From contig NZ_CP041636.1 of NCBI RefSeq assembly GCF_007197755.1, positions 2,888,001 to 2,952,000 on the forward strand: 64,000 nucleotides of DNA, in the 5' to 3' direction. This document shows, one piece after another, positions 2,314 through 37,558 of this stretch. How positions within the stretch are numbered: position 1 is the stretch's first letter; every line of letters begins with the position of its first letter. The notes below the pieces were generated by a model. It saw only the letters and a list, made by a program, of their open reading frames with translations. It was not told the origin of the DNA and ran no database searches. The translations under genes were made by a program, and so were the position numbers. The stretch is from Ferrovibrio terrae (lineage in GTDB: Bacteria; Pseudomonadota; Alphaproteobacteria; Ferrovibrionales; Ferrovibrionaceae).

Positions 2314-2341
2314 ACTATAGTGCCGGTTCCGGACCCCGCAA
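2314..2341 (-). promoter_or_regulatory. Candidate sigma70 promoter in the 423-base gap 2043-2465
   Basis: On the minus strand a -35-like TTGCGG (2336-2341), a 16-base spacer and a good -10 TATAGT (2314-2319) would start a leader of about 265 bases before the binding-protein gene at 2042. The -35 is weak. I see no gene, RNA gene or copy of the MarR-like palindrome in 2043-2465. Confidence 0.3.
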
Positions 2342-2465
2342 GCATTATTATGCATGTCGGAGCTCGCTCTGGCGCAAGTTCCTGCCTCGCAACACCTTAG
2401 CCCTTCCCTCACGGCAGCCAATGGACGCAGGGGAGGGAAACTTGCACTTTTGCGCGCCTGGCTGA

Positions 2466-6779: not shown

Positions 6780-6780
6780 C

Positions 6781-14581: not shown

Positions 14582-15040
14582 ATGAATGTGAAACCGGAGA
14601 TCAAGGCTGAACCCAGCACCATGCCGGATGGCTATGTGCTGGAAGACCAGGTCGGCCATCTGATCCGCCGCGCGCATCAGCGCCACACAGCTTTGTTCGT
14701 CGCCATGATCGGCGACGAGCAGATCACCACCACGCAATACGCGGCACTGGTGAAGCTGTATCAGATGGGTGAGCTGTCGCAGAATCATCTCGGCCGCCTC
14801 ACCGCGATGGATCCGGCCACCATCCAGGGCGTGATCCGTCGCCTCACGCTGCGCAAGTTGATCTCGCATCGCCCCGACAAGAATGACAAGCGCCGCCGCT
14901 GCCTCAGCCTCACCTCTGGCGGTCGCGATCTGGTCGGACGCCTGCTGGGCAATGGCCCAAAAGTGAGCAAGGCCACGCTCGACCCGCTCAGCCCGGCGGA
15001 ACAGCAGCAGTTCGTCGCGCTGCTCAAGCGCCTGACCTGA
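14582..15040 (+). CDS. MarR family transcriptional regulator, probably of the molybdenum-hydroxylase cluster
   Basis: This 152-residue MarR-type winged-helix protein has the start helix VGHLIRRAHQRHTALFVAMIG, the DNA-binding part TQYAALVKLYQMGELSQNHLG with recognition helix PATIQGVIRRLTLRKLIS, and wing PDKNDKRRRCLSLTSGG. It precedes the plus-strand catabolic cluster by about 170 bases. A weak promoter candidate (TTGGCC 14515-14520, 17 bases, TAGATT 14538-14543) lies upstream, together with a TATGC-N9-GCATA inverted repeat near 14467. It is expected to respond to a substrate or CoA ester of the downstream pathway. It is not closely similar to the MarR at 7605-8126. Confidence 0.9.
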   Translation: MNVKPEIKAEPSTMPDGYVLEDQVGHLIRRAHQRHTALFVAMIGDEQITTTQYAALVKLYQMGELSQNHLGRLTAMDPATIQGVIRRLTLRKLISHRPDKNDKRRRCLSLTSGGRDLVGRLLGNGPKVSKATLDPLSPAEQQQFVALLKRLT

Positions 15041-15212
15041 GCCTTTTCGCGCACTGACACCACTCATATTGCGCTGCCGCATTCCTGCGCAGCGGATGCC
15101 TACATTTTGACGTTGACTCTTTTGGGTCAGCGACGCAGCATCATATGCGTACAAACGATATCGGCCTGCGGGGGTGGGCGTGGCGTTTGTGCCGACCGGA
15201 GGCCCCAATCCG

Positions 15213-16070
15213 ATGGCGTCGTATCTGCGTCCCAGCAGTCTGGCCGAAGCGCTCGCGTCCCTGAGCGCCGCCAATCAGAACGCACCCGGCCCGGTCATCC
15301 TGGCCGGCGGTACCGATTTCTTTCCCGCCCGCGTCGGCCGTGCGGTCGACGACGACATCCTCGACCTCACCGGCATCGCCGATCTGCGCGGAATCACTGA
15401 GTCCGGCGATGGCTGGCGCATCGGCGCCACTACCACCTGGAGCGACGTGGCCAATGCCGATCTGCCGCCGTTTTTCGATGCGCTGCGCGCGGCAGCGCGC
15501 GTCGTCGGCGGCATGCAGATCCAGAATTCCGGCACGGTTGCCGGCAATCTCTGCAACGCCTCGCCGGCTGCCGACAGCGTGCCGCCGCTGCTGGCGATGC
15601 GCGCGCGAGTCGAACTCGCCTCCATCAAGGGCAAACGCGAACTCGGCTTGGGCGATTTCATCACCGGCAATCGCCGCACCACGCTCAAAGCCGGTGAACT
15701 GGTATCCGCCATTCTGATTCCGAAGCCGCGCAAAGAGGCGCACAGCGTCTTCCTGAAACTCGGCGCGCGCGAATACCTGGTGATCTCGATTGCCATGGTC
15801 GCCATCGTGCTGGAAGTCGAAAACAACGTGATTTCCGCCGCCAGCGTGGCAGTCGGCGCCTGTTCGGCGGTGGCGCAGCGCCTGCCATATCTGGAGGCCG
15901 AACTGATCGGCCGCCGGCTCAATTCCGCCCTGGCCAATCGCGTGGAAGCTGCGCAATTCGAGACCTTGCAGCCGATCGACGACATCCGCGCCAGTGCCAC
16001 GTATCGCCGTGAGGCCGCCGTCGTTCTGGTGCGCCGGGCATTGACCCAACTCGGCAAGAAGGGAGCCTGA
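15213..16070 (+). CDS. FAD-binding medium subunit of a xanthine dehydrogenase-family molybdenum hydroxylase
   Basis: This 285-residue protein of the CoxM/XdhB/NdhF FAD-subunit family passes electrons from the iron-sulfur centres to an acceptor. It starts YLRPSSLAEALASLSA and has the FAD-binding segments ILAGGTDFFP and QIQNSGTVAGNLCNASPAADS. The ATG at 15213 is chosen over a GTG at 15174 because GGAGG lies ten bases upstream and the family start matches. It is immediately followed (3-base gap) by the fused iron-sulfur/molybdenum subunit. Together they make a two-polypeptide hydroxylase. Confidence 0.92.
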   Translation: MASYLRPSSLAEALASLSAANQNAPGPVILAGGTDFFPARVGRAVDDDILDLTGIADLRGITESGDGWRIGATTTWSDVANADLPPFFDALRAAARVVGGMQIQNSGTVAGNLCNASPAADSVPPLLAMRARVELASIKGKRELGLGDFITGNRRTTLKAGELVSAILIPKPRKEAHSVFLKLGAREYLVISIAMVAIVLEVENNVISAASVAVGACSAVAQRLPYLEAELIGRRLNSALANRVEAAQFETLQPIDDIRASATYRREAAVVLVRRALTQLGKKGA

Positions 16071-16073
16071 AGG

Positions 16074-18800
16074 ATGCGGCTGATCGTCAACGGCAAACCG
16101 CACACGTATCAGGGCTCGCCGGCCAAACGCCTGAGCGACGTGTTGCGCGACGATCTCGGCCTGACCGGCACCAAGGTCGGCTGCAATGCCGGCGATTGCG
16201 GCGCCTGTACGGTGATGATCGATGGTCATCAGGTCTGCGCCTGTCTCACCGCCGTCGGCCAGGCCGCCGGCCGGCCGGTGGTCACGGTCGAAGGCCTGCA
16301 GGCGCATGGTACGCTCAGCCGCCTGCAGACGGCGTTCCTCAAGCATGGCGCGGCGCAATGCGGCATCTGCACGCCCGGCATGCTGATGGCCGCCACCGAC
16401 CTGCTGGCCGAGGTCTCAAAACCCGACGAGCAGCAGGTGATGGATGCCATCGGCGGCGTGCTCTGTCGCTGCACCGGCTATCGCAAGATCGTCGAAGCCG
16501 TGCTGGATGCCACCCGTACGCCCGATCTGCCTGAAGTGCCCGAGGTTGGCGCAGCGGTCGGCGCGCGCAGCCTGAAGGTGGACGGCCTGCCGAAGGTGGA
16601 AGGTACCGAGAAATACGGCGCCGATTATATTCCGGCCGATGCGCTGTGGCTGCGCGTGGTCCGAAGCCCGCATGCCCGCGCCAGCTTCACGCTGGGCGAT
16701 TTCTCCGAGGTGATGCGCAAATACGGCCTTGAGCGCGTGTTCACCGCCGCCGATGTGCCGCGCAACGGCTTTGCGATTTTCGACATGAAGGACCAGCCGG
16801 TGCTGGCCGACGGCATCGTGCGCTATCGCGGCGAGGCGGTGGTGGCGCTGCTCGGTCCGCGCGAGGCGGTTGAAGCCGTGAAGCCGGATGAGTTGCCGAT
16901 CCAGTATGCGGCGGAAGAGGCCGTCAGCGGCGTGATCATGGCGGCAGCACCGGGCGCGAAGCTGGTGCAGGCCGACAAACCGGAAAACGTGCTGATCCGT
17001 GGCAATGTCGCCAAGGGCGATATCGCGACAGGTTTCGCGCAGGCCGCCGTCACCGCCGAAGGCCTGTTCCAGACCAGTTTTGTCGAACATGCCTATATCG
17101 AGCCCGAAGCTGGCTGGGGCGTGCGCATCGGTGACCGCATCGAAATCCATGCCTCGACCCAGGCGCCCTATATGGACCGCGACGAAGTGGCTGGCGTGAT
17201 GCAGTTGCCGCCGGATCGCGTGCGCATCGTGCCGACCGCCTGCGGCGGCGGCTTTGGCGGCAAGCTGGATGTTTCCGTCCAGCCGCTGATCGCGCTGGCG
17301 GCCTGGCACAGCGACCGCCCGGTGGCGCTGGTCTATACGCGGCCCGAAAGCATGGCTTCCAGCACCAAGCGGCATCCGGCGCGCATCAAGGCGAAATTCG
17401 GCGCGGCCAATGACGGCAGGCTGGTGGCGGTCGAAACCGATGCCGATTTCGACACCGGCGCCTATGCCAGCTGGGGGCCGACCGTGGCCAACCGCGTGCC
17501 GGTGCATGCGAGTGGTCCCTATCATGTGCCGCATGTGCGCAATCGCAGCCGCGCGCTGTTCACCAACGCGCCGCCGTCCGGCGCGTTTCGCGGCTTCGGC
17601 GTGCCGCAGGCGGCGATCGCGCATGAAACCCTGATGGACGACCTGGCTGGCAAGCTGGGCATCGACCGGCTGGAGATGCGCTACATCAACGCTATCCGCG
17701 CCGGCGACCTCACCGCCACCAGCCAGAAGCTGGAACATTCCGCCGGTCTGGCCGAGTGCATCGCCGCGCTGCGACCGCAATGGCAGGCGCTGAATGCTGA
17801 AGTCGAAGCCTTCAATGCGCGGCGCAAGAGCCTGCGGCGCGGCATCGGCATCGGCTGCATGTGGTATGGGCTGGGTAATACCTCGATCTCCAATCCCTCC
17901 ACCATGCGGATCGGCCTGCGCGGCGATGGCCGGGTGTTTTTCTACAACGGCGCCGTCGATATCGGGCAGGGCTCGAACACCATCTTCGTGCAGATCGTCG
18001 CGGATGCGCTCGGCGTGTCGATGGATCGCATCGACTATGTGATGGGCGATACCGACCGCACGGAGGATGCTGGCAAGACCTCGGCTTCGCGCCAGACCTT
18101 CGTCTCGGGCAAGGCGACGCAGCTTGCGGCGCAGGACCTGCGCGCGCAAATTCTGCGGCTGGCCAATGCGGGTGAGGACGCGAAACTCAATTTTGATGGC
18201 GCGATGCTCACTGTTGAAGATGGTGGCTCGGTGCGCCGTCTCGATCTCGCCACGCTGTCGCGACTGAATGACGATGGTGACGTTTTGCTCGGCTCGGGCC
18301 GCTTCGATCCGCCCACCACCATGCTGGACGCCAACGGCCAGGGCGTGCCTTACGCCACCTATGGTTTCGCCGCGCAGATGGCATTGGTTGAAGTCGATAC
18401 GGAGCTTGGGACGGTCAAGGTGAAGAAGATCATCGCCGCGCATGACGTGGGCAAGGCGGTGAATCCGACCCAGGTGGAAGGCCAGATTCATGGCGGCATC
18501 GCGCAGGGCCTCGGCCTCGCGCTAATGGAGGAATACCTGCCGGGCCGCACCGAAAATCTACACGACTACCTGATCCCGACCGTAGGCGATGTACCCGAGA
18601 TCGACGTGATCATGATCGAGGATGCCGAGCCGCTCGGTCCCTTCGGCGCCAAGGGCGTCGGCGAGCCGGGCCTGGTGCCGACTGCGCCGGCCATCCTCGG
18701 CGCGATCCGCCATGCCACCGGCGTGCGCGTCGCCGAAGTGCCGGTCTTGCCGCATCGCCTGCACGCTGCACTCAAGCAGCTGCCGCAGGCAGCCGAGTAG
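16074..18800 (+). CDS. Molybdenum hydroxylase large subunit with fused N-terminal [2Fe-2S] domains
   Basis: This 908-residue protein fuses the iron-sulfur and molybdopterin subunits, as in Mop-type aldehyde oxidoreductase of almost equal length. Residues 1-75 form a plant-type [2Fe-2S] domain (C37, C42, C45, C57). Residues 85-145 form the second [2Fe-2S] helical domain (C96, C99, C131, C133). The rest is the Mo-cofactor part, with GGGFGGK, PSGAFRGFGVPQ and the catalytic glutamate E864 in GAKGVGEPGL. The enzyme uses water to hydroxylate a C-H beside a ring nitrogen or an aldehyde. Unlike the D. gigas enzyme it has a dedicated FAD subunit next door. The downstream 6-hydroxynicotinate-reductase homologue suggests an N-heteroaromatic substrate. 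Confidence 0.93.
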   Translation: MRLIVNGKPHTYQGSPAKRLSDVLRDDLGLTGTKVGCNAGDCGACTVMIDGHQVCACLTAVGQAAGRPVVTVEGLQAHGTLSRLQTAFLKHGAAQCGICTPGMLMAATDLLAEVSKPDEQQVMDAIGGVLCRCTGYRKIVEAVLDATRTPDLPEVPEVGAAVGARSLKVDGLPKVEGTEKYGADYIPADALWLRVVRSPHARASFTLGDFSEVMRKYGLERVFTAADVPRNGFAIFDMKDQPVLADGIVRYRGEAVVALLGPREAVEAVKPDELPIQYAAEEAVSGVIMAAAPGAKLVQADKPENVLIRGNVAKGDIATGFAQAAVTAEGLFQTSFVEHAYIEPEAGWGVRIGDRIEIHASTQAPYMDRDEVAGVMQLPPDRVRIVPTACGGGFGGKLDVSVQPLIALAAWHSDRPVALVYTRPESMASSTKRHPARIKAKFGAANDGRLVAVETDADFDTGAYASWGPTVANRVPVHASGPYHVPHVRNRSRALFTNAPPSGAFRGFGVPQAAIAHETLMDDLAGKLGIDRLEMRYINAIRAGDLTATSQKLEHSAGLAECIAALRPQWQALNAEVEAFNARRKSLRRGIGIGCMWYGLGNTSISNPSTMRIGLRGDGRVFFYNGAVDIGQGSNTIFVQIVADALGVSMDRIDYVMGDTDRTEDAGKTSASRQTFVSGKATQLAAQDLRAQILRLANAGEDAKLNFDGAMLTVEDGGSVRRLDLATLSRLNDDGDVLLGSGRFDPPTTMLDANGQGVPYATYGFAAQMALVEVDTELGTVKVKKIIAAHDVGKAVNPTQVEGQIHGGIAQGLGLALMEEYLPGRTENLHDYLIPTVGDVPEIDVIMIEDAEPLGPFGAKGVGEPGLVPTAPAILGAIRHATGVRVAEVPVLPHRLHAALKQLPQAAE

Positions 18801-18814
18801 GGAGGAAGGCCAGC

Positions 18815-20320
18815 ATGAGCCACGCCGTCGCCCCCGTTTCGCAAAATCCGGCCTCAAAAGACGATGTCGTCCGCTGCGATGCCTGCCCGGTGCTCTGTCG
18901 CATCCGGCCCGGCAAGGCCGGCGCCTGCGACCGCTATGCCAATGTCGAGGGCGTGCTGACCCGCGTCGATCCACTGGTGATCACCGAGCGCGCCGCCAGC
19001 GAAGGCAGTGTCGTGCCGTTTCTCTCTGGGAGTGAAGGCTGGAACGGCAGTGTGGCTGCGCCGCCGCCTGCAGCCAGCTTCGTCACCGGCATCGGCGCCG
19101 GCACAACCTATCCTGACTACAAGCCGGCGCCTTTCATCGTGTCGTCGCAGCATGACGGCGTCGATATGGTCACCGTCGTGACCGAGGGCATCTTCAGCTA
19201 TTGCGGCGTGAAGGTGAAAATTGACACCGACCGCTATCTCGGCCCCGAACAGGCCGCCGTGCGCGTCAATGGCGAAGCCGTGGGTCATGTCACCACGGCC
19301 GAATACGGCTCGCAGATGCTGTCGCTCGGCGGCGTGCATCATCTCACCGGCGGCAGCAAGAAGGAAGGCAACGTCACCTGCGATACGCTGCTGGCGCTCT
19401 GTAACAAGCAGGCTGTCACCCTGCAGATCGATGGCGGTTCCGAACTGATCGTGCAGGCTGGCAAGCCACCGGTCGTCAACGGCACGCCAGAAGCGCGCAT
19501 GCGTGTCGGCTGCGGTTCGGCCACCATCGGCATTTTTGCCAAGCAGTGGCTCGGCCATGCCGACGAGGTGATCGTGGTCGACGACCACATCACCGGCGTG
19601 CTGACCGAACACCAGGCCGGCCGTTTCCTCGATATGCCGCTCTCTGGAATCAGAGTGCGCGGCCGCAAGTCTACGCCGGGCCGCTATTTCCAGGTTGCTG
19701 ATCCCGGCCTGGGCTGGGGCGGCACCAACATTTCCGATCCGCTTGAGATCGTCGAAAGCATCGATGCCAAGGCCGCCTGGCCCGGCATGAAGCTGCTGAT
19801 GGTCTCGACCACCGGCGAGCATAGCGCCTGGTATGTGCTGGACGACCAGCTGAAGCCGCAGCCGGCCGAGATGCCGGCCCCGATCAGGGTGGTGGTGGAT
19901 CGCATCGCCGAGAATTGCGAACCTTCGCTTTGCACCGTGCTGTTCATGGCTGGCGCGGGTGGCAGCCTGCGCGCTGGTGTCACGGAGAATCCCGTACGGC
20001 TGACCCTGTCGGTGAAAGATCGCCTGACCCGTGTCACCTCGGGCGGCGCACCGGTCTATGTCTGGCCCGGCGGCGGCATCACCTACATGGTGGATGTGGC
20101 CCGCATGCCGGATAACTCTTTCGGCTACGTGCCGACACCGGCGCTGGTCGCGCCCATCGAGTTCACCTTGCAGCGCGACGACTATGCCGCGCTCGGCGGT
20201 CATATGGATTATGTCGTGCAGCTGGAGGACGTGCTGCAGGCCGGCCGTCTGAGCAAGCTGGCGCAGCGTGCCGACAATCCCTGGCCGATCTCGCGGCCCA
20301 CGGCGGAGGAGCAGCCATGA
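18815..20320 (+). CDS. 6-hydroxynicotinate reductase-like iron-sulfur protein
   Basis: This 501-residue protein resembles proteins annotated as 6-hydroxynicotinate reductase, the ferredoxin-dependent enzyme that reduces 6-hydroxynicotinate to a tetrahydro-oxo product in anaerobic nicotinate fermentation. It has an N-terminal cysteine cluster C21, C24, C28, C38 (C-x2-C-x3-C-x9-C in CDACPVLCRIRPGKAGAC) suited to an Fe-S centre, then SSQHDGVDMVTVVTEGIFSY and a C-terminal domain with YVWPGGGITYMVDVARM. No signal peptide. GGGAGGAAGG precedes the ATG. Its stop overlaps the next start (ATGA). The placement after a molybdenum hydroxylase mirrors the nicotinate pathway order, but a different heterocycle is possible. 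Confidence 0.8.
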   Translation: MSHAVAPVSQNPASKDDVVRCDACPVLCRIRPGKAGACDRYANVEGVLTRVDPLVITERAASEGSVVPFLSGSEGWNGSVAAPPPAASFVTGIGAGTTYPDYKPAPFIVSSQHDGVDMVTVVTEGIFSYCGVKVKIDTDRYLGPEQAAVRVNGEAVGHVTTAEYGSQMLSLGGVHHLTGGSKKEGNVTCDTLLALCNKQAVTLQIDGGSELIVQAGKPPVVNGTPEARMRVGCGSATIGIFAKQWLGHADEVIVVDDHITGVLTEHQAGRFLDMPLSGIRVRGRKSTPGRYFQVADPGLGWGGTNISDPLEIVESIDAKAAWPGMKLLMVSTTGEHSAWYVLDDQLKPQPAEMPAPIRVVVDRIAENCEPSLCTVLFMAGAGGSLRAGVTENPVRLTLSVKDRLTRVTSGGAPVYVWPGGGITYMVDVARMPDNSFGYVPTPALVAPIEFTLQRDDYAALGGHMDYVVQLEDVLQAGRLSKLAQRADNPWPISRPTAEEQP

Positions 20321-21192
20321 CCGCAGCTTCCGCCAACTGGCTGCTTGGCCGCGACGGCATCTCGCGCCGCCTGCATCTGCAGCATGGCCCGATCGATCTG
20401 GTGATCGAGGCCTTCGGAGTCGATGCCGCGCGGGCCTATGAGCAGGCCGTGGCGCGTTTCCAGGATATTCTGTCCGTGCTGGTCGCCGAACTGGTCGAGT
20501 TGCGCCAGCCGCTCGGCGCGGCGCATCCGCTGTTCCGTGGCCCGGTGGCGCGACGCATGGCAGTGGCCTGCTGGCCGTATCGCGATGTGTTCATCACGCC
20601 GATGGCAGCCGTCGCCGGTTCGGTGGCCGATGAAATCCTCGCCGCCATGCTGGAGGACACGCAGCTGACCAGGGCTTACGTCAACAATGGTGGCGATATC
20701 GCCTTCCATGTCGCCCCGGGTGAATCCTTGCGTGCGGCTGTCGTCTGTAATCCGGATCTGCCGCATCTGGATGCCATCGCCATGCTGACCGCAGCGCAGC
20801 CGTCGCGTGGCATCGCGACATCGGGCTGGCGCGGACGGTCTTTCTCGCTTGGCATCGCCGATGCAGTCACCGTGCTGGCGGAAACTGCCGCGCAGGCCGA
20901 TGCGGCTGCCACCATCATCGCCAATGCGGTGACTGTGGACCATGACGCGGTGGAGCGGCGCCCGGCACACGCATTGCGCGACGACAGCGACCTTGGTGCG
21001 ATTCCCGTCACGGTTTCCGTAGGTACACTGCCGATTTTTGCGATCAACGAAGCCTTGTCGGCCGGTGTGGCGCGCGCGCAAGATTTGCGCCGCAGCGGCC
21101 TGATTCAGGCCGCGTTTTTGTCACTGCAGACCGAGAACAGGGTCGTCGGCGGCGAAATGCTGCTCGGCCATGACATGAAAGCGTTAGGGTAG
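20317..21192 (+). CDS. UPF0280 family protein (ApbE-like fold)
   Basis: This 291-residue protein of the UPF0280 family is structurally related to the flavin transferase ApbE. Visible landmarks are AVARFQDILSVLVAELVELR, the glycine-rich AYVNNGGDIAFHV and GIATSGWRGRSFSLGIADAVTVLA with its aspartate late in the domain, as in ApbE-type metal/FAD sites. It is translationally coupled to the reductase-like gene (ATGA), so it may mature or flavinylate that protein. This is inference; I see no consensus flavinylation motif in the partner. Family members have no established reaction. Confidence 0.85.
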   Translation: MTAASANWLLGRDGISRRLHLQHGPIDLVIEAFGVDAARAYEQAVARFQDILSVLVAELVELRQPLGAAHPLFRGPVARRMAVACWPYRDVFITPMAAVAGSVADEILAAMLEDTQLTRAYVNNGGDIAFHVAPGESLRAAVVCNPDLPHLDAIAMLTAAQPSRGIATSGWRGRSFSLGIADAVTVLAETAAQADAAATIIANAVTVDHDAVERRPAHALRDDSDLGAIPVTVSVGTLPIFAINEALSAGVARAQDLRRSGLIQAAFLSLQTENRVVGGEMLLGHDMKALG

Positions 21193-21197
21193 GAACC

Positions 21198-21782
21198 ATG
21201 AGCCTGGTGGAAGTGCGCAAGATCGTCTGCATCACCGAGGATACGTTCCACGATGGCGGCCCCGTCGCGACGAAACGCCCGGTGAAAGGCGTGATCGGTG
21301 CCTTCGTGAAGAATCCCTATGCCGGCAAGTATGTGCAGGACATCACGCCGATGATGGATGCGCTCAAGCCGCTTGGCCTTGAACTGACCAAACGCCTGGT
21401 CGCCGCGCTCGGCAACGATCCGAAGGCGATCGAGGCCTATGGCAAGGGCGCCCTGATCGGCGCCGGGGGCGAACTGGAGCATGGCGCGCTGTGGCATGTG
21501 CCGGGCGGTTATTCGATGCGCGAGATCCTTGGCAATGCCAAAGCGATCGTGCCATCGGCGACCAAGGTCGGCGGCCCGGGTGCGCGGATCGACATTCCGC
21601 TGCATCATGTGAACGCCGCCTATGTGCGCAGCCATTTCGACGCCATCGAATTCGGCGTGGCCGATGGGCCGCGCGACAACGAGATCGCCTTCATCCTGGC
21701 GATGAGCACCGGTGGGCGCGTACATGCCCGCGTCGGCGGCCTGCAGGTCCACGAGATCAAGGGCGAGGATGGGCAGCGGTAA
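21198..21782 (+). CDS. Amino acid synthesis family protein (AA_synth, DUF1185)
   Basis: This 194-residue protein is of the AA_synth family (PF06684). Landmarks are KIVCITEDTFHDGG at the start, RPVKGVIGAFVKNPYAGKYV, ALIGAGGELEHGALWHVPGG and ISLHHVN-like DIPLHHVNAAYVRSHFDAIEF. Its reaction is unknown; members frequently occur with Liv-type importers and amidohydrolase-type genes. It lies six bases after the UPF0280 gene and before the binding protein, so it is part of the same transcript. A role in ring-opening or amide chemistry is only a guess from context. Confidence 0.82.
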   Translation: MSLVEVRKIVCITEDTFHDGGPVATKRPVKGVIGAFVKNPYAGKYVQDITPMMDALKPLGLELTKRLVAALGNDPKAIEAYGKGALIGAGGELEHGALWHVPGGYSMREILGNAKAIVPSATKVGGPGARIDIPLHHVNAAYVRSHFDAIEFGVADGPRDNEIAFILAMSTGGRVHARVGGLQVHEIKGEDGQR

Positions 21783-21855
21783 AGCGTAAAACAAGAAAAC
21801 GAGAGTTTGCGTTCGCGTTCACGGGAATCATGGGATCAACAGGAGGCAGACTAAA

Positions 21856-23061
21856 ATGAATCGCAGAAGCTGGTTGAAACTGAGTGCCGCGTTCGGTGCG
21901 GCGATGTTCGCGATGTCGGGCGCCCAGGCGCAGGACACGATCAAGATCGGCGAAATGAATTCCTACAAGAATTTCGCCGCTTTCCTCGAGCCCTACAAGA
22001 AGGGCTGGGAACTGGCTGTCGAGCAGGTGAATGCCAGCGGCGGCCTACTGGGCAAGAAGCTGGAAATCGTCAGCCGCGACGACAACGGTAATCCGGGCGA
22101 CGCCGTGCGCATCGCCGAGGAACTGGTGACGCGCGAGAAGGTCTCCTTCCTGATCGGCACCTTCCCGTCCAACGTGGGGCTGGCGGTCGCCAGCTTCGCC
22201 AAGGAGAAGAAGGTCCTCTTCATCGCTGCCGAACCGCTGACCGACAAGATCGTCTGGGACCAGGGCAACAAATACACCTTCCGTCTGCGCGCCTCGACCT
22301 ATATGCAGACCGCCATGCTGGTGCCGGAAGCGGCCAAGCTGAAGAAGAAGCGCTGGGCCATCGTCTATCCGAACTATGAATACGGCCAGTCGGCCACCGC
22401 CGCCTTCAAGCAGCTGATCAAGGCGGCGCAGCCGGATGTCGAATTCGTCATCGAGCAGGCGCCGCCGCTCGGCAAGATCGAGGCCGGCGCCGTTGCCGAC
22501 GCGATCGCTGCCGCCAAGCCGGATGCGATCTTCTCGTCGCTGTTCGGTGCCGATCTCGCCAAGTTCGTGCGTGAAGGCCAGACCCGTGACCTGTTCAAGG
22601 GCGTGGAGGTGTTCAACCTGCTCGCCGGCGAGCCGGAATATCTCGACCCGCTGAAGGATGAATCGCCGGTTGGCTGGTGGGTGACGGGCTATCCCTGGTA
22701 CGCCATCACCACGCCGGAGCATAAGGCTTTCGCCGAAGCCTATCAGAAGCGGTTCAACGACTATCCGCGTCTGGGCTCGATTGTCGGCTATGCCACTGTG
22801 CAGTCTGCTGCGGCCGTGATCAAGAAGGCCGGTACGCTCGACACCGAGAAGCTGGTGACGGCGATGAAGGGCCTGACCCACTCCACGCCACTCGGCAACA
22901 TCACCTATCGTCCGCAGGACAACCAGTCCACGATGGGTGCCTATGTCGGCAAGATCGGCCTGAAGGATGGCAAGGGCGTGATGACCGACTGGTACTACGC
23001 CGATGGCGCGAAGTTCCTGCCGTCGGATGCCGATGTCGCCAAGATGCGCCCTGCTGAGTAA
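21856..23061 (+). CDS. Liv-type ABC transporter substrate-binding protein
   Basis: This 401-residue periplasmic binding protein (Peripla_BP_6) has an N-terminal signal (RRSWLKLSAAFGAAMFAMSG, cleaving near AQAQD); an RR pair is present but a full Tat motif is not convincing. The mature part starts TIKIGEMNSYKNFAAFLEPYKKGWELAVEQ. A strong AGGAGG lies ahead of the ATG. It delivers the pathway substrate to the fused permease encoded next. A GC-rich hairpin follows the gene, which commonly raises binding-protein mRNA level relative to membrane components. The ligand is unknown; the gene set suggests an N-heterocyclic compound. Confidence 0.93.
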   Translation: MNRRSWLKLSAAFGAAMFAMSGAQAQDTIKIGEMNSYKNFAAFLEPYKKGWELAVEQVNASGGLLGKKLEIVSRDDNGNPGDAVRIAEELVTREKVSFLIGTFPSNVGLAVASFAKEKKVLFIAAEPLTDKIVWDQGNKYTFRLRASTYMQTAMLVPEAAKLKKKRWAIVYPNYEYGQSATAAFKQLIKAAQPDVEFVIEQAPPLGKIEAGAVADAIAAAKPDAIFSSLFGADLAKFVREGQTRDLFKGVEVFNLLAGEPEYLDPLKDESPVGWWVTGYPWYAITTPEHKAFAEAYQKRFNDYPRLGSIVGYATVQSAAAVIKKAGTLDTEKLVTAMKGLTHSTPLGNITYRPQDNQSTMGAYVGKIGLKDGKGVMTDWYYADGAKFLPSDADVAKMRPAE

Positions 23062-23090
23062 GGCGACCGAGTAAAGCCTGACGCCATGAT

Positions 23091-23121
23091 CTCCCGCCCT
23101 GCCGCGCAAGCGGGGCGGGAG
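23091..23121 (+). terminator. Intercistronic stem-loop after the binding-protein gene
   Basis: A perfect 9-base stem, CTCCCGCCC (23091-23099) with GGGCGGGAG (23113-23121), has a 13-base loop and is followed by TCTTCTTCC. The tail is only partly U-rich, so this is likely a leaky terminator or a stabilising 3-prime hairpin within the transporter operon. Confidence 0.6.
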
Positions 23122-23160
23122 TCTTCTTCCCACTTCCCTCCAGCCTGACCGGAACCGGCC

Positions 23161-25056
23161 TTGCTCGCGAATATCGTTATCCAATTCATGAACGGCCTTG
23201 CCGGCGCCTCGTCGCTGTTCCTGGTTGCCGCCGGCCTCTCGATCATTTTCGGTGTCAGCCGCATCGTGAATTTCGCCCATGGCTCGCTCTACATGCTGGG
23301 TGTCTATCTGGCCTATACACTGGTCGAGCTCTTCGGCCGCAGCAGCATCTTCGGTTTCTGGGGTGGCGTGCTGATGGCGGCGCTTTGCGTTGGCCTGATT
23401 GGCGTGGTGATCGAAATCGTCGTACTGCGCCGCATCTATCGCGCACCCGAACTGTTCCAGCTGCTCGCCACCTTCGCGCTCGTCCTCGTGATCAAGGATG
23501 CCGCCCTGTATATCTGGGGCGCGGAAGACCTGGTCGGCCCGCGTGCCGCCGGCCTGCGTGGCGCCGTGGAAATTCTCGGCAAACGCTTCCCGCAATATGA
23601 CCTGGTGCTGATCGCCATCGGCCCGGTCGTGCTCGGCCTGCTCTGGCTGCTCATGAACCGCACGCGCTGGGGCACGCTGGTGCGCGCCGCCACGCAGGAC
23701 CGCGAGATGGTCGGCGCGCTTGGCGTCAACCAGAGCGGTTTGTTCACCGGCGTGTTTTTTCTCGGTGCTTTCCTTGCCGGCCTCGGCGGTGCCGTCCAGC
23801 TGCCACGCGAACCCGCCCAGCTGATGCTTGATATTACCGTGATCTCCGACGCCTTTGTTGTCGTCGTGGTCGGCGGCATGGGCTCGATTGGCGGCGCTTT
23901 CCTGGCGGCGCTTCTCATTGCGCAGGCCAAGGCCTTCTGCATCGGCATCGGCGATGTCAGCATCTTCGGTACGGTCTTTTCTTTCAGCAAATTCACCCTG
24001 GTGGTCGAATTCGTCATTATGGCCGTCGTGCTGGTGGTGCGGCCCTGGGGCCTGCTCGGCAAGCAGCAGGGCGTGCAGCGCGGCGCCTTCATGGTCGAAC
24101 CGCCGCTTTATCCGCTCAACCAGACCTTCTGGATCGTCGTGCTCGCCATCGTCGTGCTGCTCGGCCTGATCCCGTTCGGCGGCGACAACTATCTTCTGGT
24201 GCTGCTGATCGACATCGCGGTGTTCGCGCTGTTTGCTGTCACGCTGCATTTCTTGATGGGCCCGTCGGGCATGGTCAGCTTCGGCCATGCGGCTTACTTC
24301 GGCCTCGGCTGCTACGGCGCGGCGCTGGCTTTGCTCAAGCTCAAGCTCCCGATGGAACTGGCGCTGTTCGCGGCGCCGCTCGCCGGTGGTCTCGGCGCGC
24401 TGGTGTTCGGCTGGTTCTGCGTGCGGCTCAGTGGCGTCTATCTCGCCATGCTGACCCTGGCCTTCGCACAAATCGCCTGGTCTGTGATTTACCAGTGGGA
24501 TGCCTTCACCGGCGGCTCGAATGGCCTGATCGGCCTGTGGCCCAGCGAATGGCTGAAGAGCCGCGCGGTCTTCTATGCCTTCGCTCTGGTACTCTGTGTC
24601 GGCAGCATCCTGTTCCTCTGGCGCGTGGTGCATGCACCCTTTGGCTATGCGTTGCGGGCGGGACGTGACTCTGCACTGCGGGCCGACGCGATCGGTATTA
24701 ATGTCCGCCGCTTCCAGTGGTTCGGCTTCACGCTGTCTGGCGCCTTCGCGGGCCTGGCCGGTGGTCTGTTCGCCTTCTCCAAGGGCAGTATCTCGCCCGA
24801 GACACTCGCCGTGCCGCGCTCGGTCGACGGCCTCGTCATGGTGCTGCTCGGGGGTGTGCAGACGCTGACCGGGCCTGTAGCAGGCGCGGCGCTGTTCACC
24901 TGGCTTCAGGATTCGATTGCGCGCAACACCGAATACTGGCGCGCCATCCTCGGCCTCACCATTCTCGTCATCGTGCTCGCCTTCCCGCAGGGCATTGCCG
25001 GCTTCCTGAAGCAGATGTCGGCACGCACAGGCCTGATGCGCAGGGAGGCCGTGTGA
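23161..25056 (+). CDS. Fused LivH-LivM ABC transporter permease
   Basis: This 631-residue inner-membrane protein joins both Liv permease subunits. Residues 1-295 are LivH-like (GLSIIFGVSRIVNFAHGSLY, FVVVVVGGMGSIGGAF), ending VRPWGLLG. Residues about 325-620 are LivM-like (GPSGMVSFGHAAYFGLGCYGA, YLAMLTLAFAQIAW, VMVLLGGVQTLTGPVAGAAL). Together they give roughly 16-18 membrane segments. No stop codon or frameshift separates the halves, so the fusion is genuine. The start is a TTG at 23161; an ATG at 23188 is an alternative but would cut the first helix. The stop overlaps the ATPase start (TGATG). Confidence 0.9.
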   Translation: MLANIVIQFMNGLAGASSLFLVAAGLSIIFGVSRIVNFAHGSLYMLGVYLAYTLVELFGRSSIFGFWGGVLMAALCVGLIGVVIEIVVLRRIYRAPELFQLLATFALVLVIKDAALYIWGAEDLVGPRAAGLRGAVEILGKRFPQYDLVLIAIGPVVLGLLWLLMNRTRWGTLVRAATQDREMVGALGVNQSGLFTGVFFLGAFLAGLGGAVQLPREPAQLMLDITVISDAFVVVVVGGMGSIGGAFLAALLIAQAKAFCIGIGDVSIFGTVFSFSKFTLVVEFVIMAVVLVVRPWGLLGKQQGVQRGAFMVEPPLYPLNQTFWIVVLAIVVLLGLIPFGGDNYLLVLLIDIAVFALFAVTLHFLMGPSGMVSFGHAAYFGLGCYGAALALLKLKLPMELALFAAPLAGGLGALVFGWFCVRLSGVYLAMLTLAFAQIAWSVIYQWDAFTGGSNGLIGLWPSEWLKSRAVFYAFALVLCVGSILFLWRVVHAPFGYALRAGRDSALRADAIGINVRRFQWFGFTLSGAFAGLAGGLFAFSKGSISPETLAVPRSVDGLVMVLLGGVQTLTGPVAGAALFTWLQDSIARNTEYWRAILGLTILVIVLAFPQGIAGFLKQMSARTGLMRREAV

Positions 25057-25820
25057 TGACCGTTCTCTCTGTCAGCAATCTCTCGAAAGCCTTCGGCGGT
25101 GTGAAAGCCGTACAGGATGTGGCCTTCAGCGTCGCTGCCGGCGAACTGCTCGCCCTGATCGGCCCGAATGGTGCCGGCAAAAGCACCTGCTTCAACATGC
25201 TGAACGGCCAGCTCAAACCCGACAGTGGCATCGTCAATCTGCTGGGCCGCAGCCTGGTCGGCATGAAGCCGCGCGATATCTGGCGGCTTGGCGTCGGCCG
25301 CACCTTCCAGATCACGGCCACCTTCAACTCGATGACCGTGCGCGAGAATATCCAGATGGCGCTGCTGTCGCACCACAATGCGCTGATGTCCTTGTGGAAG
25401 CCGGCCAACGGGATGTATCGCGACGAAGCGATGGTCCTGCTCGACCGCGTCAGCATGGCCGACCAGAGCGAGCGGCCCTGCGGTATTCTGGCTTATGGCG
25501 ATATCAAGCGGGTGGAACTGGCGATTGCGCTGGCCAATCAGCCGAAACTGCTGCTGATGGACGAGCCGACGGCGGGCATGGCGCCGAACGAGCGTATCGC
25601 ACTGATGGCGCTGACGGCGAAGCTGGCGCGGCAGGACAATATCGCCGTGCTGTTCACCGAGCATGACATGGACGTGGTCTTTGCCCAGGCGGATCGCATC
25701 ATCGTGCTCAACCGCGGCAAACTGATCGCGGAGGGTAACCCTGTGGAAGTGCGCGCCAATCCGGAGGTGCAGGCAGTCTATCTCGGCAGTGGCGCCACCT
25801 ATGCAGGGGAGGGCCACTGA
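25056..25820 (+). CDS. livG: Liv-type ABC transporter ATP-binding protein (LivG-like)
   Basis: This 254-residue ATPase has Walker A GPNGAGKST, the LivG-type insertion SLVGMKPRDIWRLGVGRTFQI, a signature region ILAYGDIKRVELAIAL (diverged from LSGGQ), Walker B LLLMDEPTAGM and the switch histidine FTEHDMDVV. It energises the fused permease together with the LivF-like protein. The ATG shares one base with the permease stop. The diverged signature is usual in LivG proteins. Confidence 0.95.
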   Translation: MTVLSVSNLSKAFGGVKAVQDVAFSVAAGELLALIGPNGAGKSTCFNMLNGQLKPDSGIVNLLGRSLVGMKPRDIWRLGVGRTFQITATFNSMTVRENIQMALLSHHNALMSLWKPANGMYRDEAMVLLDRVSMADQSERPCGILAYGDIKRVELAIALANQPKLLLMDEPTAGMAPNERIALMALTAKLARQDNIAVLFTEHDMDVVFAQADRIIVLNRGKLIAEGNPVEVRANPEVQAVYLGSGATYAGEGH

Positions 25821-25821
25821 C

Positions 25822-26523
25822 ATGCTGACCGTCGAGGGCCTCAACACCTATTACGGCCGTGCGCATATCCTGTCTGATCTGGCGCTCAAGGCGCAGGCTG
25901 GCGAAGTGGTCGTGCTGCTGGGCCGCAATGGCGCCGGCAAGTCCACCACGATGAAGTCGGTGATCGGCCTGGTGCCAGCCGAAAGCGGTACGATCAGCTT
26001 CGATGGTGCGCGCATCGACCATCTGTCGCCACATCGCATCGCACGGCTGGGCCTGGGCTATGTGCCGGAAGATCGCCGCATCTTCACGGATCTTAACGTG
26101 ATGGAGAATCTGGAAGTCGGCCGGCAGAAGCCGCGCGACGGTGCGCCAACCTGGACGCCGGAACGCCTGTTCGAGCTGTTTCCCAATCTCGGCAGGATGA
26201 AGGATCGTCCCGGCGGCAGGATGTCCGGCGGCGAGCAGCAGATGCTGACCATTGCCCGCAGCCTGATGGGCAATCCGCGCCTGATCCTGCTGGACGAACC
26301 CTCGGAAGGCCTGGCCCCGGTGATCGTCGAGCAAATGGCGCGCACGATCCTCCAGTTGAAGGCCGAAGGGCTTTGCGTGCTGCTGTCGGAGCAGAACCTG
26401 CATTTCGCCCAGATGGTGGCCGATCGCGCTTACATCATTGAGAAGGGCCGTATCCGCTATTCGGGCACGATGGCCGAACTCGCCGCCGATGCAGCGGTGC
26501 GCGAACAGTATCTGTCGGTTTGA
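25822..26523 (+). CDS. livF: Liv-type ABC transporter ATP-binding protein (LivF-like)
   Basis: This 233-residue ATPase has Walker A GRNGAGKST, the LivF-type LGYVPEDRRIFTDLNVMENL, signature MSGGEQQMLTIARSL, Walker B LILLDEPSEGLAP and a LSEQNLHFAQMV switch region. It starts one base after the LivG stop, with AGGGGAGGGCC as ribosome site. It is the second ATPase of the importer. Confidence 0.95.
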   Translation: MLTVEGLNTYYGRAHILSDLALKAQAGEVVVLLGRNGAGKSTTMKSVIGLVPAESGTISFDGARIDHLSPHRIARLGLGYVPEDRRIFTDLNVMENLEVGRQKPRDGAPTWTPERLFELFPNLGRMKDRPGGRMSGGEQQMLTIARSLMGNPRLILLDEPSEGLAPVIVEQMARTILQLKAEGLCVLLSEQNLHFAQMVADRAYIIEKGRIRYSGTMAELAADAAVREQYLSV

Positions 26524-26536
26524 GGAGTCTCGCAGT

Positions 26537-28579
26537 ATGGGCTGGATTGTCGGAATCGACGTCGGCGGCACGTTCACCGACCTGATCGGCATCGAACCGC
26601 AGTTGGGCAAGGTGGCACTGGCGAAGGTGCCGACCACGCTGGACAACCAGGCCTTCGGCGTGCTCGCCGCGCTGGAGAAGGGCGGCATCGCCCTGGCCGA
26701 GACCGATACCATCGTGCATGGCACGACGACGACGACCAACGCCCTGCTCGAGCGCAAGGTGGCCAAGATTGGTCTGATCACCACGAAAGGCTTCCGCGAC
26801 AGCCTGGAACTCGGCCGCCGCACCCGGCCGACACCTTATGGCCTGACCGGGCGGTTCGAGCCGCTGGTGCCGCGCCAGTGGCGGCTGGAAGTGCCCGAGC
26901 GCATGGATGCCGATGGCGATGTGGTCATCGCGCTGGACGAGGCCGCCGTGCGCGCCGCTGCCGAGCAGCTGAAGGCCGCCGGCTGCGAAGCACTGGTGAT
27001 CCATTTCCTGCACAGCTACATCAATCCGAGTCACGAAAAGCGCGCGCTGGAAATCGCCGCCGAAGTCTGGCCGAACCGCTATATCACTGCCGGACATCAG
27101 CTGCTGTCGGAATACCGAGAATACGAACGCGGTACGACCGCCTGCGTGAATGCCAGCGTGCAGCCGGTGCTGCATCGCTATATCGAACGGCTGAACGGCG
27201 AGCTGAAGAGCAAGGGCTTTGGACGGGATCTTCTCGTCATGCAGGGCAATGGCGGAACCATCGCTGCCGGAATCGTTGCCGAGACTGCCGTGAATACCGT
27301 GATGTCGGGTCCGGCTTCGGGCGTGATGGCGGCGGCCTATACCGCGCGCGCCGCCGGGCTGCCCAACGTAATCACCTACGACATGGGCGGCACGTCCTCG
27401 GATGTCGGGCTGATCCAGGATGGTGTGCCGCAGGTCTCGTCGGAACTGGAACTCGAATATGCCATGCCGATCCATGTGCCGATGGTGGATGTGCATACCA
27501 TCGGTGCGGGCGGTGGTTCGATCGCCTTCATCAACGAGGCCGGCATGCTGCAGGTCGGCCCGGAAAGCGCCGGCGCGCGGCCGGGCCCGATCTGCTACGG
27601 CCGTGGCGGCACGCGCCCCACGATCACCGATGCCAATCTGGTGCTCGGCCGGCTCAATCCTGATGGCTTGCTCGCGGTCGACAGCAAAGTGTCGCTGCAG
27701 GATGTGAAGGACGCGATTGATCGCGACGTCGGCAAGCCGCTCGGCCTCAAGACCGACGAGGCCGCTGCCGCCATCCTGCGCATCGCCAATGACAAGATGG
27801 CCGGTGCGATCCGCATGGTGAGCTTAAGCCGTGGCCATGATCCGCGCGATTTCGCATTGTTCGCCTTCGGCGGCGCTGGGCCACTGCACTCTGCCGCTCT
27901 GGCGCGTGAGTTGGGCATTCCCAAGCTGCTGATCCCGGCACGGCCCGGTATCACCAATGCGCTCGGCTGCGTGGTTGCCGATCTGCGGCATGACTATGTG
28001 AAGACCGTCAACAAGCCGCTGTCGGTGCTGGAAGACGGCCTGGTAGAAACAGTGCTGGCCGAGCAGGTGGCCGAGGGCCGGGCGACGGTGGAGCGCGACG
28101 GTGTCGCGGTCGAGGAAATCCAGGTGCTGCACACCGCCGACATGCAGTTCCAGGGCCAGAGCCATCTGCTGACCGTGGCAGTGAGTGATCCGAAGATTTC
28201 CCGCGACGCGCTGCAGAAGGCCTTTGAGGAGGCCTACTGGCAACGCTTCGAGGTTGAACTGCCCGAGATCCGCGCCGTGCTGGTCAATCTTCATACTGCC
28301 GTGATCGGCCGCCGGCCGCGTCTGTCGCTGGACCGTCTGCTCTCTGCCGAACCGGCCAGGGATGTCGCTGACGCAAAGAAGGGCAGCCGGCAGGTCTGGT
28401 ATGAAGCCGGCGGCTGGCAGGAGACGCCGGTCTATGACCGCGAACGGCTGCCGCGCGATGTCAGCTTTGCCGGCCCTGCCATCCTCGAACAGCTCGACAC
28501 CACGGTTGTTATCGACCCGGGCAATAGCGTGACTGTGGACAAGCTCGGCAACCTGATCGTATCCGTGAGCGCGGAGTAG
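26537..28579 (+). CDS. hyuA: Hydantoinase/oxoprolinase family protein, subunit A
   Basis: This 680-residue ATPase-like subunit of the N-methylhydantoinase/5-oxoprolinase/caprolactamase/acetophenone carboxylase family has the phosphate-binding GIDVGGTFTDLIGI at the N-terminus, HGTTTTTNALLERK, DMGGTSSDVGLIQDG and RPGPICYGRGGTRPT. It is predicted to use ATP to activate a cyclic amide carbonyl for ring opening together with subunit B, six bases downstream. GAGGAG precedes the ATG. The LivF stop is only 14 bases away, tying the hydrolase to the importer. Confidence 0.92.
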   Translation: MGWIVGIDVGGTFTDLIGIEPQLGKVALAKVPTTLDNQAFGVLAALEKGGIALAETDTIVHGTTTTTNALLERKVAKIGLITTKGFRDSLELGRRTRPTPYGLTGRFEPLVPRQWRLEVPERMDADGDVVIALDEAAVRAAAEQLKAAGCEALVIHFLHSYINPSHEKRALEIAAEVWPNRYITAGHQLLSEYREYERGTTACVNASVQPVLHRYIERLNGELKSKGFGRDLLVMQGNGGTIAAGIVAETAVNTVMSGPASGVMAAAYTARAAGLPNVITYDMGGTSSDVGLIQDGVPQVSSELELEYAMPIHVPMVDVHTIGAGGGSIAFINEAGMLQVGPESAGARPGPICYGRGGTRPTITDANLVLGRLNPDGLLAVDSKVSLQDVKDAIDRDVGKPLGLKTDEAAAAILRIANDKMAGAIRMVSLSRGHDPRDFALFAFGGAGPLHSAALARELGIPKLLIPARPGITNALGCVVADLRHDYVKTVNKPLSVLEDGLVETVLAEQVAEGRATVERDGVAVEEIQVLHTADMQFQGQSHLLTVAVSDPKISRDALQKAFEEAYWQRFEVELPEIRAVLVNLHTAVIGRRPRLSLDRLLSAEPARDVADAKKGSRQVWYEAGGWQETPVYDRERLPRDVSFAGPAILEQLDTTVVIDPGNSVTVDKLGNLIVSVSAE

Positions 28580-28584
28580 GGACC

Positions 28585-30294
28585 ATGGCGAAAAAACCGA
28601 TCGATCCCGTCACACTTGTTGTGATCCAGAACGGCCTGCAGCAGGTCTGCAACGAGATGGATCTGGCATTTTGCCGCGCGGCGTTTTCGCCGGTGATCTC
28701 GGAAGCACTCGACCGCTCTGATGGCATCTATCATGGCGAGACCGGAGAACTGATCGCGCAGGGCGAACTCGGCCTGCCGGTTTTCGTAGGCACCATGCAG
28801 TTTTCCACCCAGGCCGTGATCGAGCGCGCGCGCAAGACACCGGTGCTCGCGCCCAAGCCGGGCGATGTCTATATCGTCAACGATCCCTATCTGGGCGGCA
28901 CGCATCTGATGGATGTGCGTTTCGTGAAACCCTTCTTCTACAAGGGCAGGCTGTTTTCCTGGCTCTCCAATACCGGGCACTGGCCTGATATCGGCGGCAT
29001 GGTGCCGGGCGGTTTCTCGGCCAATGCCACCGAAGTGGAGCAGGAAGGCCTGCGCCTGCCGCCGGTCAAGCTCTACAAGGAAGGCAAGCTGGACGAGGAA
29101 ATCCTCTCCATCATCCTCAGCAACATCCGCATCGCCGACCAGCGGATCGGCGACATCAAGGCGCAGGCGGCAGCGCTCACCATCGGCGAGAAGCGCCTGA
29201 CCGCCTTGCTGGATCGCTACGGCGCCGAGGTTGTCGAGCAGGCCATCGAGGAACTGAAGCAGCGCGCCAGCCAGCAGATGCGCGCCCGCATTCGCACCAT
29301 TCCCGACGGCGTCTATCATGGCGAAGCCATGGTCGATTCCGACGGCGTGGTCGACGAGCCGCTGGTGATCAAGATGAAGGTCACCAAAGCGGACGAGGAA
29401 ATGCATTTCGACATGACAGGCTCCAGTCCGCCCTGTCGTGGCCCGATGAACAGCGTGATCGCGACGACCTATTCGTCGATCTATCTCGCCGTAAAGCACA
29501 TCTTCCCCGATGTGCCGATCAATGCGGGTACCTTCGAGCCGCTGAAAGTGCTCGATCCGCATGACACGTTCCTTTATGCCAAATATCCGCGCTCGGTTTC
29601 GGGCTGCGCGGCCGAAGTGAGCCAGCGCATCGCCGAAGCGGTGTTCAACGCGCTGGTGCAGGCGATGCCCGACCGGCTGTTCGCCGCGCCCGCCGGCACC
29701 TCGGGCAATCTGGCGCTCGGCGGCTACGACCCCAAGCGCGATCGCTCCTATGTGATGTATGTGATCTCAGGTGGCGGTTATGGCGGCTGGCATGGCGGCG
29801 ACGGCATCAGCAACGGCTGCTCGACCATCGGCATTTCCAAGACCACGCCGATCGAGGTGATGGAGCAGTATTATCCTGTGCTGTTCGAGGAATATTCGCT
29901 GCATGAAGGCTCCGGCGGCGCTGGCGAGCACCGCGGCGGCTTCGGCGTCAACTACACCATTCGTTTGCGCCGTGGCGAGGCCCGCGCCTCCATGGTGATG
30001 GACCATGGCCGCAGCGGGCCGCGCGGCGTGCTAGGCGGTGAAGACGGCGGCCTCAACACCGTACGGGTCGAGACCGCGAAGGGCTCTTACGTGCCGCCGC
30101 ATCTGTCCAAGGACCAGGATATCGAGATCGCAGTGGGCGACCGCCTGCATGTCTCCACCCCGGGCGGCGGCGGCTACGGTAATCCGGCCAAACGCGATCC
30201 GGCCGATCTGGCCCGCGACCTTGAGCGCGGTTACTACACGGCGGATCAGATCAAGGCGCGCTTCGGCCAGGCAGTGAAATCCGCCGCCGAATAG
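28585..30294 (+). CDS. hyuB: Hydantoinase/oxoprolinase family protein, subunit B
   Basis: This 569-residue partner of HyuA has the family landmarks DPVTLVVIQNGLQQVCNEM, LDRSDGIYHGETGELIAQG, GDVYIVNDPYLGGTHLMDV, SGCAAEVSQRIAEAV, GEHRGGFGVNYTIR and VSTPGGGGYG near the C-terminus. With HyuA it should form the hetero-oligomer that hydrolyses a cyclic amide or carboxylates a substrate using ATP. It is the last recognisable catabolic gene of the block. In a pathway with hydroxylation and ring reduction upstream, lactam opening would be the logical step (inference). Confidence 0.92.
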   Translation: MAKKPIDPVTLVVIQNGLQQVCNEMDLAFCRAAFSPVISEALDRSDGIYHGETGELIAQGELGLPVFVGTMQFSTQAVIERARKTPVLAPKPGDVYIVNDPYLGGTHLMDVRFVKPFFYKGRLFSWLSNTGHWPDIGGMVPGGFSANATEVEQEGLRLPPVKLYKEGKLDEEILSIILSNIRIADQRIGDIKAQAAALTIGEKRLTALLDRYGAEVVEQAIEELKQRASQQMRARIRTIPDGVYHGEAMVDSDGVVDEPLVIKMKVTKADEEMHFDMTGSSPPCRGPMNSVIATTYSSIYLAVKHIFPDVPINAGTFEPLKVLDPHDTFLYAKYPRSVSGCAAEVSQRIAEAVFNALVQAMPDRLFAAPAGTSGNLALGGYDPKRDRSYVMYVISGGGYGGWHGGDGISNGCSTIGISKTTPIEVMEQYYPVLFEEYSLHEGSGGAGEHRGGFGVNYTIRLRRGEARASMVMDHGRSGPRGVLGGEDGGLNTVRVETAKGSYVPPHLSKDQDIEIAVGDRLHVSTPGGGGYGNPAKRDPADLARDLERGYYTADQIKARFGQAVKSAAE

Positions 30295-33495: not shown

Positions 33496-33565
33496 GTCCG
33501 GCTTTTCCTCCCTGTCTGCTGCCAATACTCAAGTCGTTCTCTATGAATATCAAGGCTTTAATATT

Positions 33566-33631
33566 GGTTGCGCCTCACCTGTTGACTGGGTTGCGCCTTT
33601 TGGGAATGCTGGCTGTCAGCCGGTTGCGCCT
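33566..33631 (+). promoter_or_regulatory. Three exact GGTTGCGCCT repeats upstream of putA, probable PutA operators
   Basis: GGTTGCGCCT occurs at 33566-33575, 33589-33598 and 33622-33631, with offsets of 23 and 33 bases, all in the same orientation between the acyl-CoA synthetase and putA. Enterobacterial PutA represses through sites containing GTTGCA; these repeats share GTTGC and the protein has an N-terminal ribbon-helix-helix. An additional partial TTTGCGCC follows the third copy. Confidence 0.6.
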
Positions 33632-33659
33632 TTGCGCCGGAGTCGCAGGAGTCCCTGGC

Positions 33660-37502: not shown

Positions 37503-37558
37503 GCATTGCCTTCGCCGCGTCTTGCGCCACAATGGTGTGAGTAGGCGGAGGCAGCGCA

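Follow-up and report, generated by a model that had tools for sequence, protein, structure and literature searches.

The window analysed here is a stretch of 64,000 nucleotides of Ferrovibrio terrae (contig NZ_CP041636.1, positions 2,888,001 to 2,952,000), whose genome is a single contig of 4,264,634 bases. Between positions 14582 and 30294 it holds a plus-strand block of genes that includes a homologue of 6-hydroxynicotinate reductase (Hnr), a molybdenum hydroxylase, an importer and two hydantoinase/oxoprolinase-type subunits (HyuA and HyuB, together HyuAB). We regard the block as quite probably a nicotinate operon of the reductive type known from Azorhizobium and Eubacterium barkeri, with HyuAB in the place of enamidase. 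The proteins of the locus, with family calls made through Pfam and NCBIfam, are as follows.

14582..15040, plus strand: MarR-family regulator, probably of this operon (PF01047, 1.6e-09; MarR homologues occur in many Hnr loci)
15213..16070, plus strand: FAD subunit of an XDH-type molybdenum hydroxylase (PF00941, PF03450; likely start 15213, open reading frame (ORF) opening at 15174)
16074..18800, plus strand: fused 2Fe-2S/Mo-cofactor subunit of the hydroxylase, a proposed nicotinate 6-hydroxylase (PF02738, PF20256, PF01799)
18815..20320, plus strand: Hnr, 6-hydroxynicotinate reductase homologue (61-71% identity to plasmid homologues)
20317..21192, plus strand: UPF0280 protein, proposed Hnr maturation factor (NF003322; found in just those 68 of 385 genomes that have Hnr; ApbE-like fold)
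21198..21782, plus strand: AA_synth (DUF1185) protein, accessory (PF06684, 1e-69; structure 3byq, 8.5e-57)
21856..23061, plus strand: periplasmic binding protein of a Liv-type importer (PF13458, 1.4e-68)
23161..25056, plus strand: fused two-domain permease in a single ORF (PF02653, BPD_transp_2, in two stretches)
about 25056..25820, plus strand: importer ATPase 1 (read from the ORF translation)
25822..26523, plus strand: importer ATPase 2 (read from the ORF translation)
26537..28579, plus strand: HyuA, ATP-binding subunit of the proposed 1,4,5,6-tetrahydro-6-oxonicotinate (THON) lactamase (PF01968, PF05378; caprolactamase ATP motifs present)
28585..30294, plus strand: HyuB, metal-site subunit of the proposed THON lactamase (PF02538, 7.5e-165; CapB Asp-His-Asp-His tetrad present)

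Intergenic spacing is -4 to 14 bases in the enzyme block, 172 bases after the MarR gene, 73 ahead of the binding protein and 99 ahead of the permease. An earlier note on this DNA had described the block as a single run of genes, and it is present in that order and on the plus strand, with coordinates that match or very nearly do. All the genes that it listed are there, with two amendments: the permease is one fused gene, and the true starts of the FAD subunit and HyuA lie downstream of the longest-ORF starts.

Hnr scores above the cut-off of no Pfam or NCBIfam family and takes its name from annotated homologues, as it matches 26 plasmid records at 61-71% identity, 16 of which are named 6-hydroxynicotinate reductase. 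Across 114 homologues, eight of its cysteines are kept in 97% or more of the sequences, and its nearest named relative among the loci listed is a Ferrovibrio metagenome-assembled genome (L012) whose Hnr is 95% identical. The predicted Hnr model is modest (pLDDT 74.3) and gave no structure match at E 0.001. In the window the molybdenum hydroxylase adjoins Hnr, as reductive nicotinate catabolism requires. The window genome has no match to enamidase at 1e-30 and has HyuAB instead; because enamidase is replaced in this way, the window represents a variant of the reductive nicotinate pathway.

The view of the block as N-heterocycle catabolism, put forward in the earlier note, is supported, and so is its proposed order of import, hydroxylation, ring reduction and lactam opening, as far as an order can be predicted from such genes. 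Its suggestion that the pathway may be undescribed is not supported, and we likewise dropped a wholly new pathway, since the reductive nicotinate route through THON has already been published for aerobic Azorhizobium, and a conserved cluster, which includes an ABC transporter and two functionally uncharacterised proteins, was reported in 2012 from Bradyrhizobiaceae, including a strain that uses nicotinate and 6-hydroxynicotinate for growth (PMC3511419). The Hnr homologue of Bradyrhizobiaceae strain SG-6C, 42% identical to the E. barkeri enzyme, links the window to the E. barkeri fermentation, for which the same THON intermediate is proposed (PMC3511419); E. barkeri has an enamidase (2vun), unlike the window genome. 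Azorhizobium caulinodans and SG-6C share with the window the hydroxylase, Hnr, ABC importer, proteins of unknown function and the THON route (PMC3511419). The window therefore most likely encodes this known route (nicotinate, 6-hydroxynicotinate, THON, ring opening), with nicotinate as its predicted substrate.

Comparisons were made in two samples, which may overlap. Set A comprises 88 Hnr loci: the window, the 80 best of 593 confirmed genome loci, and 7 of the 26 plasmid records that carry Hnr. Set B comprises 385 Alphaproteobacteria genomes, of which the 68 with Hnr were searched further. The enamidase query was the amidohydrolase beside Hnr in Sulfitobacter, which matches the E. barkeri enamidase 2vun (1e-106).

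HyuAB and enamidase replace each other in Hnr genomes. Among the 68 of set B, 39 have the HyuB clade (at least 67% identity) and 29 the enamidase homologue (at least 64%), with none having both and none neither (Fisher p = 7e-20, uncorrected), and in Hnr genomes without this clade the best HyuB match is at most 45%. These genomes span 33 families, 17 with HyuB only, 14 with enamidase only and 2 with both kinds in different genomes. Outside the Hnr genomes, enamidase was found in 1 of 317 (G082). Within the 88 loci of set A, HyuAB is present in 34, enamidase in 22, both in none and neither in 32; with at least 8 kb on each side (58 loci) the counts are 25, 20, 0 and 13. The remainder of the genome was searched for the 32 loci with neither gene and for L014, the 55 others being judged within the locus, and of these 33 genomes 18 have HyuB, 14 enamidase (three of the homologues at 49-61%), none both and one neither (L018). 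The totals for the 88 loci are thus HyuAB 51, enamidase 36, both 0 and neither 1. The earlier note had placed HyuAB in the enamidase position and had considered that the families might assort independently; the first idea agrees with these counts, and the second fails for Hnr, UPF0280 and the HyuAB/enamidase slot. HyuAB is a likely enamidase substitute and most likely opens the same lactam. In the open-access literature we found nothing combining 6-hydroxynicotinate reductase with hydantoinase, nor anything combining all three of nicotinic acid, hydantoinase and 6-hydroxynicotin.

The grouping of genes around Hnr is far beyond chance, as its pairing with UPF0280 shows. The UPF0280 protein of the window scores 358.9 bits against NF003322 (curated cut-off 290). 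In set B the 68 genomes (of 385) with NF003322 are precisely those with Hnr, and the two genes lie at most 4 kb apart in 67 of them, the exception being split over contigs. UPF0280 is present in 77 of the 79 set A loci with 3 kb of downstream sequence (absent in L044 and L078), and 26 of the 27 plasmid records with UPF0280 also have Hnr. The association is strong, and the likeliest role of UPF0280 is to help Hnr mature or acquire its cofactor. The earlier note had left both UPF0280 and AA_synth as families of unknown reaction, and this can be refined: UPF0280 follows Hnr, while AA_synth is accessory. A pathway step of its own for UPF0280 was dropped, as its presence tracks Hnr whichever hydrolase is present. 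On the Hydrogenophaga sp. BPS33 plasmid (L011, 3096-4028 and 13905-14837), the record has UPF0280 at four sites and no Hnr; the repeats in which it sits also contain MarR, a Rieske protein and a PDR/VanB reductase, and adjoin IS1071 transposases.

The predicted UPF0280 model (pLDDT 90.9) matches 2o34 and ApbE-type enzymes; all 31 structure matches at E ≤0.001 are to 2o34 or to ApbE/FmnB/Ftp/TM1553 chains, with TM-scores by query length of 0.40-0.59. Structure 2o34 belongs to COG2122, which we take to be UPF0280. With the ApbE flavin transferases UPF0280 shares the fold, the ATSG stretch and the DAxxT motif, whereas the SHTxxP histidine loop of ApbE has a gap opposite it in the profile alignment (a weak one, with a probability of 45% and four ApbE rows, chosen from eight loci by ATSG and DAxxT) and the Pfam ApbE score is 22 bits, below the gathering score of 25.6. 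The Hnr of E. barkeri bears a covalent flavin, and it is conceivable, at somewhat under even chances, that UPF0280 attaches the flavin of Hnr. UPF0280 may instead aid sulfur or cluster delivery, a possibility that we also rate a little short of an even call. Its ApbE-like fold and retained motifs speak against sulfur delivery, as do the covalent flavin in E. barkeri and the window genome's lack of an ApbE match at 1e-20 (the search included six genomes with known Hnr, four of which lack ApbE at this level); the missing histidine loop speaks for it. So does work on Desulfovibrio, according to which COG2122 is required in homocysteine synthesis and was proposed to assist in persulfide modification; its resemblance to ApbE is reported to stop short of the flavin-binding region (PMC5764234).

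The exchange of HyuAB and enamidase has recurred. On the Hnr tree, built by a quick method, the label changes at least 7 times (6 without L078), with 5 changes forced by strongly supported branches, and at least 6 changes are needed on a tree of the hydroxylase, likewise built by a fast method. Once the loci are thinned at 85% Hnr identity, 55 are left, 32 with HyuAB and 23 with enamidase. All 5 contrasts on strong branches run in the expected direction, and there are 7 when all branches are used. In Hnr, UPF0280 and the XDH-type hydroxylase, no alignment column (defined as separating at 85% within each group) tells the HyuAB clusters apart from those with enamidase, and Hnr is as similar between groups (median identity 0.686) as within them (0.691), so that the upstream steps look the same in both groups.

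The hydroxylases point the same way. An XDH-type hydroxylase is found in 61 of the 88 loci and cytochrome-c NicAB, presumably nicotinate dehydrogenase as in Pseudomonas, in 13, with both in none and neither in 14. The pairings are XDH-type with HyuAB in 41, XDH-type with enamidase in 19, NicAB with enamidase in 11 and NicAB with HyuAB in 2 (Neorhizobium and strain La 6; L006 and L008). The mutual exclusion of the two hydroxylases, together with the two loci that join NicAB to HyuAB, points to one substrate, nicotinate. Bradyrhizobium loci of set A have NicAB, Hnr, UPF0280, AA_synth, importer and MarR, with an enamidase homologue in all but L080, which ends short; the window, in contrast, combines the XDH-type hydroxylase with HyuAB. 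Ferredoxin-NADP reductase genes, present in 19 of the 88 loci (15 with enamidase, 4 with HyuAB), fit a reductase supplied by ferredoxin; the compared sequence of the window locus contains no such gene.

Several observations weigh against this interpretation. With relatedness taken into account, p is 0.0625 for the 5 independent contrasts that strong branches provide. The set B cut-offs were chosen post hoc, from the match lists, and the set A search of whole genomes for a second enzyme covered only 33 loci. L078 was scored as HyuAB at only 62% identity, and a distant relative of enamidase (37-41%) is present in 3 of the 39 genomes with HyuAB. In 20 of 39 genomes no HyuB lies within 20 kb of Hnr on its contig, and in 10 of 29 the same is true of enamidase; many of these are split contigs. 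Among the 317 Hnr-less genomes, the HyuB clade (69-71%) also occurs in 4, which belong to a single family, and it is thus not bound to Hnr; three of these four loci adjoin a different molybdenum-hydroxylase subunit. Finally, the importer binding protein has two columns that separate the groups.

These last points would also suit a difference in substrate, with enamidase clusters acting on nicotinate and HyuAB clusters on another N-heteroaromatic or a reduced lactam, as would the company that NicAB keeps with enamidase in 11 of its 13 loci and an AA_synth subtype that tracks enamidase. We consider two substrates unlikely in view of the indistinguishable Hnr, UPF0280 and XDH-type hydroxylase sequences, the NicAB-HyuAB loci and the 7 label switches on the Hnr tree.

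The AA_synth subtype in question, the second, accompanies enamidase in 32 of 36 loci and HyuAB in 4 of 51 (22 of 23 and 4 of 35 among loci with full flanks), and an independent-pairs test of enamidase against subtype was not significant (median p 0.25). These locus-level counts are preferred to the genome-level list, which was hand-picked by identity and coverage and in which a copy of at least 55% identity occurs in 24 of 39 HyuAB and 19 of 29 enamidase genomes. An essential role was dropped, 15 and 10 genomes, respectively, having no copy at that level. Structures of PF06684 have a chorismate-mutase-like fold (PMC2954203), and in the operon the protein would act in an accessory role.

In L078 (Acidisphaera sp. 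L21), Hnr and AA_synth occur without UPF0280 or enamidase, and HyuB has only the 62% match noted above; this is perhaps a decaying cluster. The Hnr-less loci L122-L125, of one family, have the same HyuAB clade, beside a molybdenum-hydroxylase subunit in L122-L124 and near a PLP-decarboxylase-like gene in L124, and perhaps belong to another lactam pathway.

HyuAB belongs to the hydantoinase/oxoprolinase family by its Pfam domains, ATP motifs and metal tetrad. With the motif residues taken from PMC8453981, HyuA keeps both phosphate-site aspartates and GxxPGP (35 rows; the first aspartate in 33, with 2 gaps), and HyuB keeps the metal tetrad D43, H107, D110 and H132 in 30 of 30 rows. The NCBIfam caprolactamase models are the best for both subunits (548.1 and 331.4 bits), below their equivalog cut-offs of 1000 each. 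In caprolactamase, CapA is thought to activate the lactam and CapB to hydrolyse it, bicarbonate being needed (PMC8453981), and the related OplAB pair opens delta-valerolactam, also six-membered, using ATP (PMC11033972). CapAB (6yra, PMC8453981) and OplAB (PMC11033972), a family that opens six- and seven-membered lactams, share with HyuAB the two-subunit build, ATP motifs and Asp-His-Asp-His metal tetrad; unlike CapAB, the window HyuAB forms a separate clade linked to Hnr and lies far under the caprolactamase cut-offs. By analogy, HyuAB is predicted to hydrolyse a lactam, probably with ATP. A carboxylase-like action, with HyuAB as kin of acetophenone carboxylase working on the ring or a later intermediate while another enzyme opens the ring, is very improbable: models (329.3 bits for HyuA, 124.7 for HyuB) and structures of acetophenone carboxylase are matched too, but caprolactamase scores higher for both subunits, both match 6yra, and HyuAB is exactly complementary to a ring-opening enzyme. 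On the Pleomorphomonas sp. SM30 plasmid (L005, 13962-20834) the HyuAB of an Hnr cluster, beside nicR, is annotated as acetophenone carboxylase apc3/apc4, a name that may be misleading.

For the reductive nicotinate operon we propose the following sequence of steps. The importer would bring in nicotinate, which the molybdenum hydroxylase would convert to 6-hydroxynicotinate and Hnr to THON; HyuAB, instead of enamidase, would open the six-membered THON lactam, HyuA activating it with ATP and HyuB hydrolysing it at the metal site, as in the caprolactamase analogy. The resulting enamine would lose ammonia to give 2-formylglutarate, and UPF0280 perhaps fixes the flavin of Hnr. The compound proposal, in which HyuAB is an ATP-driven THON lactamase that has repeatedly replaced the metal-dependent enamidase and in which UPF0280, as a diverged relative of ApbE, installs the covalent flavin on Hnr without the histidine loop, is tentative, and with both parts taken together rather doubtful.

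Elsewhere in the window, a catabolic-looking block on the minus strand (849-8950) encodes a binding protein, AMP-ligase, flavin oxidoreductase, acyl-CoA dehydrogenase, MarR and SDR, and positions 33474-39144 hold a PutA-type proline dehydrogenase/aldehyde dehydrogenase followed by two CoA-transferase-family genes.

What goes beyond the known pathway is the swap of enamidase for the unrelated HyuAB pair, recurring across many bacteria, and the pairing of UPF0280 with Hnr. If our interpretation is correct, a large clade that annotations call no more than hydantoinase or acetophenone carboxylase would gain an assigned reaction, and ring opening without enamidase would be explained in HyuAB-type strains, which make up 39 of the 68 Hnr genomes sampled. 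Enamidase opens the ring without ATP, and the spending of ATP where another enzyme needs none would raise a question of control or irreversibility. The strict pairing with Hnr would, for its part, supply UPF0280, a family with no assigned reaction, with a definite protein as its client.

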